NCBI GenBank assembly: GCA_021846505.1
Contig: JAJZWV010000036.1
Coordinates: 1-39,471 of the forward strand
Length of the DNA stretch: 39,471 nucleotides
DNA from: Bacillota bacterium
GTDB lineage: Bacteria; Bacillota; Sulfobacillia; Sulfobacillales; JAIMBI01
Direction of reading: 5' to 3'
A model generated the notes under the pieces. It was not told the origin of the DNA. It was given only the letters and a program-made list of their open reading frames with translations, and made no database searches. The position numbers and the translations under genes were made by a program. This document shows positions 21,927 to 23,551 of the stretch, piece after piece (positions within the stretch are counted from its first letter, which is position 1; every line of letters starts with the position of its first letter).

Positions 21927-22397
21927 TCAGACCCGCAGCTGCTGGACGGCCTCGAGCACACGGTCATAGGAGGCCGGATCCGCCGCCGGAAATGATCGAT
22001 TCTCGTAGCGCAGGATGCCGTCGGCGTCAATCAGAAACATGGAGCGCGCCGCCGTCACCTCATCCGCCCGCAGGACGCCGTAGGCGCGCGCAGCCGCGCG
22101 GGTGGCGTCTGAGCCCAGCAGGTAGGGCAGTCCGCCCAGACTCGCGGCAAACACGGCGAGCGCGGGCGCGGAATCGGTCGAGCACAGCAGCAACTCGGCG
22201 CCGAGGGCCTGCACCTGGCTCCACTTGCCTCTCCACGAGGTCACTTCCGAGATTCAGCCGCCGGTGAAGGCCATCGGGAAAAAGCCCAGCAGCAGGGGCT
22301 TGCCCCGGAAGTCAATGAGCCGGCGCAGGCTGCCGGCCGTCGTGGCCACCTCAAAATCGGGAGCGGCCTCATTCAGCCGCGCGGATGTTGCCGCCAA
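21927..22397 (-). CDS. Peroxiredoxin, probable selenoprotein (UGA at active site)
   Basis: AhpC/TSA-family peroxidase, 156 aa if TGA 22256-22254 is read as selenocysteine 48. Before it: NEAAPDFEVATTAGSLRRLI, GKPLLLGFFPMAFTGG. After it, same frame: ISEVTSWRGKWSQVQALGAE, DSAPALAVFAASLG, AARSMFLIDADGIL. The peroxidatic motif PxxxTxxC is P41-MAF-T45-GG-U48, so the stop is exactly where the catalytic Cys belongs, and the catalytic Arg (AARSMF) is kept. No frameshift occurs on either side. TTG 22397 is chosen as start because a perfect GGAGGTGAT (22409-22401) lies 2 nt beyond the spacing optimum upstream. Only one other Cys remains (C72), suggesting a one-Sec enzyme reduced by an external thiol. 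The alternative is a nonsense pseudogene; the exact position and the stem-loop after it favour Sec. Confidence 0.82.
22228..22256 (-). promoter_or_regulatory. UGA codon and candidate bacterial SECIS stem-loop
   Basis: On the minus strand TGA (22256-22254) is followed after 13 nt by CCTC-GTGGA-GAGG (22240-22228). The apical loop begins with G and starts 17 nt after the TGA, within the spacing reported for bacterial SECIS elements (roughly 16-37 nt, a G in the first two loop positions). The stem may extend by a TG/CA pair across a bulged A. The stem is short, so this is a candidate, not a proof. Confidence 0.6.
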
Positions 22398-22589
22398 AGA
22401 ATCACCTCCGTTGCTGAGCGCCATTGTGACACAACCGGGCCGTGGGGCGCGCCCGCGCCAGCGGAAACCCAAAGCACGGCGCCCCGAGTGAGTTTCCCAC
22501 GCTGGGGCCGCCTTGCCAAATCCGATCTAGAAGTTGACAAGGTGCGCCAGATATCGGAAGAGTGTGGCTAGGAATCCCCAGGAGGTGGA

Positions 22590-23551
22590 ATGATGAGCGC
22601 GGCCAGCGTAACTGCGGCCGTCGGTGGCGCTTTGGCGACCATACTTCTACTCGCAGGGTGCGGTGCCCCCCAGTCCGTTGCGCCGCCCCGGAGGGCCCCA
22701 GGGACTGAGTTGACGCGCGGAGGCGATCCGGGTCGTCCACAGATATATGGAGCAGGAGTGGGCGGCCGAAGCGACTTGGAGTGTCCCGGTCCAAGACAGG
22801 CTGGAGGTGGCGCCCCAAGTTCTGGTCGATGACTTCACGTGGAGATTAAACAAGGCGGGCAAAGCGACCCCGCCCAGTCCGCCGGCTCATCTTTCCCGTG
22901 AGACGGTTGCCGTCATGGTGCCCCAGCAGGCGACGGCGTTCGAGGCCATGACAAACGGCGTGTACATGGTGTTCGTCAAGCGGGGAAGTTCCTGGGTGCA
23001 GGCCTATTCCCCCCGCCGTCGCCAAAGGGGCGCCGCCGCTCTCTCCTGAGGACAATCATGCGGGCTACGCGCAATTGCTCTCGCCCTCCGACTACAAGTA
23101 CCTGAAGCTGGCGCCCGCCGTCATTGCTTCCCGCTACGCCGTGGACACTGCCGACGCGTCCGAGGGGGCGACCCTTACCGATGCCTCCACGTTTGCACCG
23201 GGTGTGTTCACGACCCAACTCTGGGCCAAACTTCAGCCGGGGCAGCATCAGACCGCGGCGTCAGGAGCCGTGCCGACAGCATATCCGACCTATGCGTTTC
23301 GGCTGAAGGGCGGGGGCGCCGTCGTCTTCCTGAGCGTCAAGCGCCAGGCAACCTACACGGCGTCTCCGGGCTATCACTTTACCGTCGCGGCCAACAGCGG
23401 GTACACAGCATTTATGGCTCCGGGTATCTACACCACCGAATCCATGACGACGCTGTTCAACTTGGCCGTCATCGATCCCCCGTCCACGAGCACGGCACCC
23501 GTTCGTGTGATTGGGCTTTCGTGGGGAGACGTTTCGATTACTGGACACTGA
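22590..23551 (+). pseudogene. Secreted lipoprotein gene broken by frameshifts
   Basis: ATG 22590, preceded by AGGAGGTG, opens a lipoprotein signal peptide: SVTAAVGGALATILLLAGCG with lipobox LAGC. The sequence then continues in a second frame from about 22710 (AIRVVHRYMEQEWAAEATW, TWRLNKAGKATPPSPPAHLS, QATAFEAMTNGVYMVFVKRG) and in a third from about 23035 (EDNHAGYAQLLSPSDYKYLK, YAVDTADASEGATLTDASTF, TYTASPGYHFTVAANSGYTA) to TGA 23551. Together they would give a ~320-aa anchored extracytoplasmic protein of unknown function. At least two frameshifts make it a pseudogene unless they are sequencing errors. Confidence 0.7.

Follow-up and report, generated by a model that had tools for sequence, protein, structure and literature searches.

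A peroxiredoxin gene interrupted by a single TGA

The window analysed here, a stretch of 39,471 nucleotides, contains a gene that, judged from its sequence, almost certainly encodes a selenocysteine (Sec)-containing peroxiredoxin (Prx), with Sec predicted to be inserted at codon 48. The gene and its main elements are the following:

21927..22397, minus strand: gene of the Sec-peroxiredoxin; 157 codons with the terminal TGA counted, predicted protein of 156 residues with Sec at position 48
22254..22256, minus strand: in-frame TGA (Sec48), peroxidatic position of PxxxTxxU
22044..22046, minus strand: codon of the conserved active-site Arg118
22401..22409, minus strand: Shine-Dalgarno-like GGAGGTGAT, three bases 5' of the TTG start, an element common to congeners

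Read from 22397 to 21927, the frame comprises 47 sense codons (TTG start counted), a TGA, 108 further sense codons and a TGA stop. The TGA at 22256-22254 is the sole interruption of an otherwise open frame, as the preliminary description had stated, and the placement of this codon at the catalytic Cys of a PxxxTxxC motif was correct as well: the motif reads P41-MAF-T45-GG-U48, i.e. PMAFTGG(U), and the in-frame UGA aligns with the catalytic Cys of homologues. The ribosome binding site described ahead of the TTG corresponds to the GGAGGTGAT element; in two congeners an ATG is aligned with this start and has an identical GGAGGTGATTC upstream. The Pfam AhpC-TSA (PF00578) match spans the UGA (residues 9-131, 91.8 bits against a cut-off of 26). 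The downstream half had been described as keeping the frame and the catalytic Arg, and Arg118 was found where it had been placed; it is invariant in 14 aligned Sec forms and in Cys homologues too. The only Cys of the window protein, C72, is not conserved.

A TGA within a long open frame is not rare, and by length alone there are 47 such codons in the window. What raises the present one above chance is the homology on both sides of the TGA together with its position at the exact catalytic codon, which recurs in 21 further genomes of the order. A random nonsense mutation would rarely hit this codon, as had been argued; the chance is about 1 in 156.

Structure and predicted activity

An AlphaFold model of the window protein, built with Cys at position 48, reached a pLDDT of 93.5. 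Structures of Bcp, Prx1 and AhpE matched it about equally well (Z 23-25), and structure did not point to any one Prx subfamily, the scores of the PrxQ/Bcp, Prx1 and AhpE chains lying within about 1 Z of one another. The PrxQ/Bcp 2-Cys type was rejected because no Cys is found at the resolving position, five residues downstream of the peroxidatic one; nor does the window protein have a resolving Cys at the Prx1 position. Assignment to PrxU was likewise rejected: in a scan against NCBIfam every equivalog cut-off was missed, the best score being 54.5 bits, and the PrxU equivalog (NF040737) requires 270. The 1-Cys Prx AhpE of Mycobacterium tuberculosis has the same fold (4x0x, Z 23.5, 28% identity) and, like the window protein, no resolving Cys. 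It differs, however, in having Cys where the window protein has Sec, and structures of PrxQ/Bcp and Prx1 resemble the window protein just as closely.

Because a second Cys is absent from the PrxQ and Prx1 resolving positions, the product is most likely a 1-Sec peroxidase, as predicted from sequence and model. The Prx fold would set the selenol by Thr45 and Arg118. By analogy with Prx chemistry, the Sec selenolate would then attack H2O2 or an organic hydroperoxide to give a selenenic acid, which may be reduced back by an external thiol or by a protein of the thioredoxin-like kind. The missing resolving Cys would also suit a Sec protein that uses the Prx scaffold for a non-peroxidase role, be it as redox relay, sensor or disulfide reductase, and with the NCBIfam equivalogs unreached, family membership does not fix the activity. 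However, PxxxT and Arg118, which are the peroxide-binding residues of Prx enzymes, have been retained, and we regard such a role as improbable.

Selenocysteine machinery and decoding of UGA

The window corresponds to contig C111 in a Bacillota metagenome-assembled genome (MAG; G000) of 3.58 Mb in 119 contigs, with a completeness of 96.3% and a contamination of 1.5%. The preliminary description had pointed out that the gene would imply a Sec system in its host, and selA, selB, selC and selD were indeed all located in this one genome: SelA on contig C46 (507.8 bits), SelB on C87 (319.7 bits), SelD on C27 (354 bits) and a tRNA-Sec with anticodon TCA on C85 (67.8 bits, cut-off 47). Weak additional tRNA-Sec matches in the genome were, where checked, ordinary Ser, Arg or Gly tRNAs.

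Recognised Sec sites with TGA occur in at least five genes of the host, the window gene counted. SelD itself (locus L018, C27) has a TGA at SGUGCK, a formate dehydrogenase (L085, C33) has one at CNRTUHAP, and in a second Sec-Prx on contig C108 (L082:988-1419) the TGA lies in PLAWTPVU. TGA-bearing orthologues of this C108-type Sec-Prx are found in congeners and in other genera of the order. A further Prx-like gene (L084, C31:10594-10959) contains FUPYC, of the UxxC type; its product is nearest to a SelL-related redox family, with 62 bits, which is under that family's cut-off of 120.

UGA recodings occur in other bacteria, so a decoding as Trp or some other residue, through reassignment of the code or a suppressor tRNA, has to be weighed. 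This reading is extremely improbable: TGA ends three neighbouring genes as well as the window gene, Trp is written TGG, the tRNA-Trp that was found has the anticodon CCA, only tRNA-Sec carries a TCA anticodon in the loci scanned, and the UGA occupies an invariant Cys column.

The UGA-Prx and the Sec machinery mostly occur together, though not in every genome. SelB was found in 38 of the 42 genomes of the order. Two genomes that are 96-97% complete (G093 and G094) have no UGA-Prx, and neither SelB nor tRNA-Sec was found in them. The UGA-Prx is present in G106 (a 96% complete MAG), where SelB and tRNA-Sec were not found at the thresholds used, and in G123 (63% complete), where neither was found. 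The simplest reason for the missing SelB, and in G106 for the missing tRNA-Sec as well, is an assembly gap, both being MAGs; G106 is a loose end. In three genomes (G088, G120 and G122) tRNA-Sec was not found though UGA-Prx and SelB are present. We also observed in G111 a tRNA-Cys (GCA) of 95 nt (L135:163-257, C1) that reaches 56 bits against the tRNA-Sec model and may be a tRNA-Sec-like tRNA-Cys.

Orthologues, phylogeny and selection

A search through 154 genomes of the class yielded orthologues in which TGA is the one internal stop. Relatives with a TGA at the same codon, which the preliminary description had proposed to look for, were found in 21 further genomes of the order, at 35-72% identity. 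The TGA column is identical in all 23 genes that were re-read, the window gene among them. In the phylogenetic tree, the window gene and its 21 orthologues from the order form one clade of 22 rows (support 99/99), which is separate both from the C108-type Sec-Prx, itself a well-supported clade, and from the Cys-type Prx. No Cys form was found within the 22-row clade in this tree, from which AhpE is absent. The 23rd gene (L044), from another family of the class, branches outside the clade. It is located at L044:1501-1932 (G125) and encodes a UGA-Prx with the motif SMAFTPVU; a long stable hairpin lies 3' of its UGA.

To the breadth of the phylum, the search was carried through a sample of 398 evenly drawn genomes. 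Only the window genome and G111, of the same order, gave more than 200 bits, and the next-best matches were Cys forms with 112 bits. Compared with three congeners, dN/dS was 0.14-0.28 upstream of the UGA and 0.18-0.21 downstream, and the latter values indicate that the codons past the UGA are under selection at the protein level, in keeping with an intact downstream half. Synteny with a congener (G087) extends over an ABC transporter, a PLP-dependent decarboxylase, an MFS transporter, a ribokinase-type kinase, the Prx and a fumarase.

A pseudogene, arising by nonsense mutation of the Cys codon or by a sequencing error in it, would take a single change from TGC or TGT to TGA, and in a GC-rich window a TGA in a long open frame is common by length alone; the recurrence of TGA at this codon in 21 further genomes (35-72% identity), the purifying selection 3' of the UGA and the complete Sec system of the host make this explanation scarcely credible.

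Since no Cys member was found, Sec may be obligatory in this apparently order-restricted group. We tentatively propose that the clade is a distinct Prx subfamily, restricted to the order and made up of selenoproteins only, in which the 1-Sec peroxidase function may depend on Sec.

A candidate SECIS hairpin

Just downstream of the UGA, the window gene contains a hairpin that may serve as its SECIS element:

22226..22243, minus strand: candidate bacterial SECIS hairpin, UG-A(bulge)-CCUC-[GUGGA]-GAGG-CA, 17 nt from the UGA to the apical loop

With four base pairs and a five-base loop (GUGGA) that starts with GU, 17 nt from the UGA, its geometry conforms to the published bacterial SECIS model, which has a loop of 3-9 nt, a G among the first two loop positions and a spacing of 16-37 nt (PMC13188914). 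Taken by itself, the hairpin of the window gene was not more stable than shuffled sequences (z +0.98; p 0.36). Over the 23 genes, the region 3' of the UGA was more stable than synonymous-codon shuffles, with a mean z of -1.82; most other offsets were near 0 (-0.7 to +0.2), and one offset, represented by four values, gave -1.33.

In the family of the window gene, the stem 14-20/26-32, with the U of the UGA as the origin of the count, shows pairing in 86% of cells, against 31-65% in slid registers, and it includes one compensated pair (A-U to U-A). In a second group the pairing again peaks in register, without double changes. Covariation support for the hairpin is thin. The UGG of the loop also encodes a Trp that every one of the order's 22 Sec forms has kept, and constraint on the protein and on the RNA is therefore inseparable at this point.

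In the proposed mechanism, SelA, SelD and tRNA-Sec, whose genes are present in the host, would provide Sec-tRNA, and SelB together with the hairpin just past the UGA would bring about the insertion of Sec at codon 48.

Relation to known selenoproteins

That Prx-like selenoproteins are known in other bacteria, as the preliminary description had stated, is borne out by the literature. Prx proteins with TxxU are an established bacterial selenoprotein family (PMC13188914), of which 12 members have been counted in a study that also lists a Sec-Prx in Symbiobacterium thermophilum (PMC1794560). PrxU of Eubacterium acidaminophilum is a Sec-containing Prx of PF00578 with TxxU, and its family is listed in both sources (PMC13188914; PMC1794560). 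The window protein shares with the PrxU family the PF00578 fold, the PxxxTxxU motif and the UGA at the peroxidatic position; it differs in length, the PrxU equivalog model having 233 residues versus about 155, and in its score (54.5 vs 270 bits). In a proteomic study of Sulfobacillus thermotolerans grown on ore concentrate, a Sec-containing PrxU was named (PMC7409299). This protein is a table entry of 178 aa with no sequence in the text of the paper that would place it in the orthologous group of the window protein, with which it shares the description as a Sec-type Prx. A Sec-containing formate dehydrogenase has been reported for Sulfobacillus genomes (PMC4378227). Within the host itself, the C108 Sec-Prx has its UGA at the equivalent functional position, but belongs to a separate, well-supported clade.

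Our literature search, with subscription journals mostly outside its coverage, returned no paper on this particular Sec-Prx group. The biology of Sec-peroxiredoxins is already known; what is new is a member whose subfamily is apparently restricted to the order and Sec-only. Standard annotation would discard this gene or cut it in two; the analysis restores it, and it reveals in genomes of the order several predicted Sec-containing peroxide-defence proteins each. The order probably includes acidophilic sulfobacilli. A Prx clade observed with Sec only is a natural case in which to study the advantage of selenium over sulfur.

A side observation concerns the neighbourhood of the gene. On the plus strand of the window, at 22590-23551, there are three overlapping or adjacent ORFs in differing frames. 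A Pfam search of two of the three gave no match. The first begins with a sequence resembling a lipoprotein signal (LLLAGCG), and the three are possibly a single gene for a secreted protein that has been split by frameshifts.
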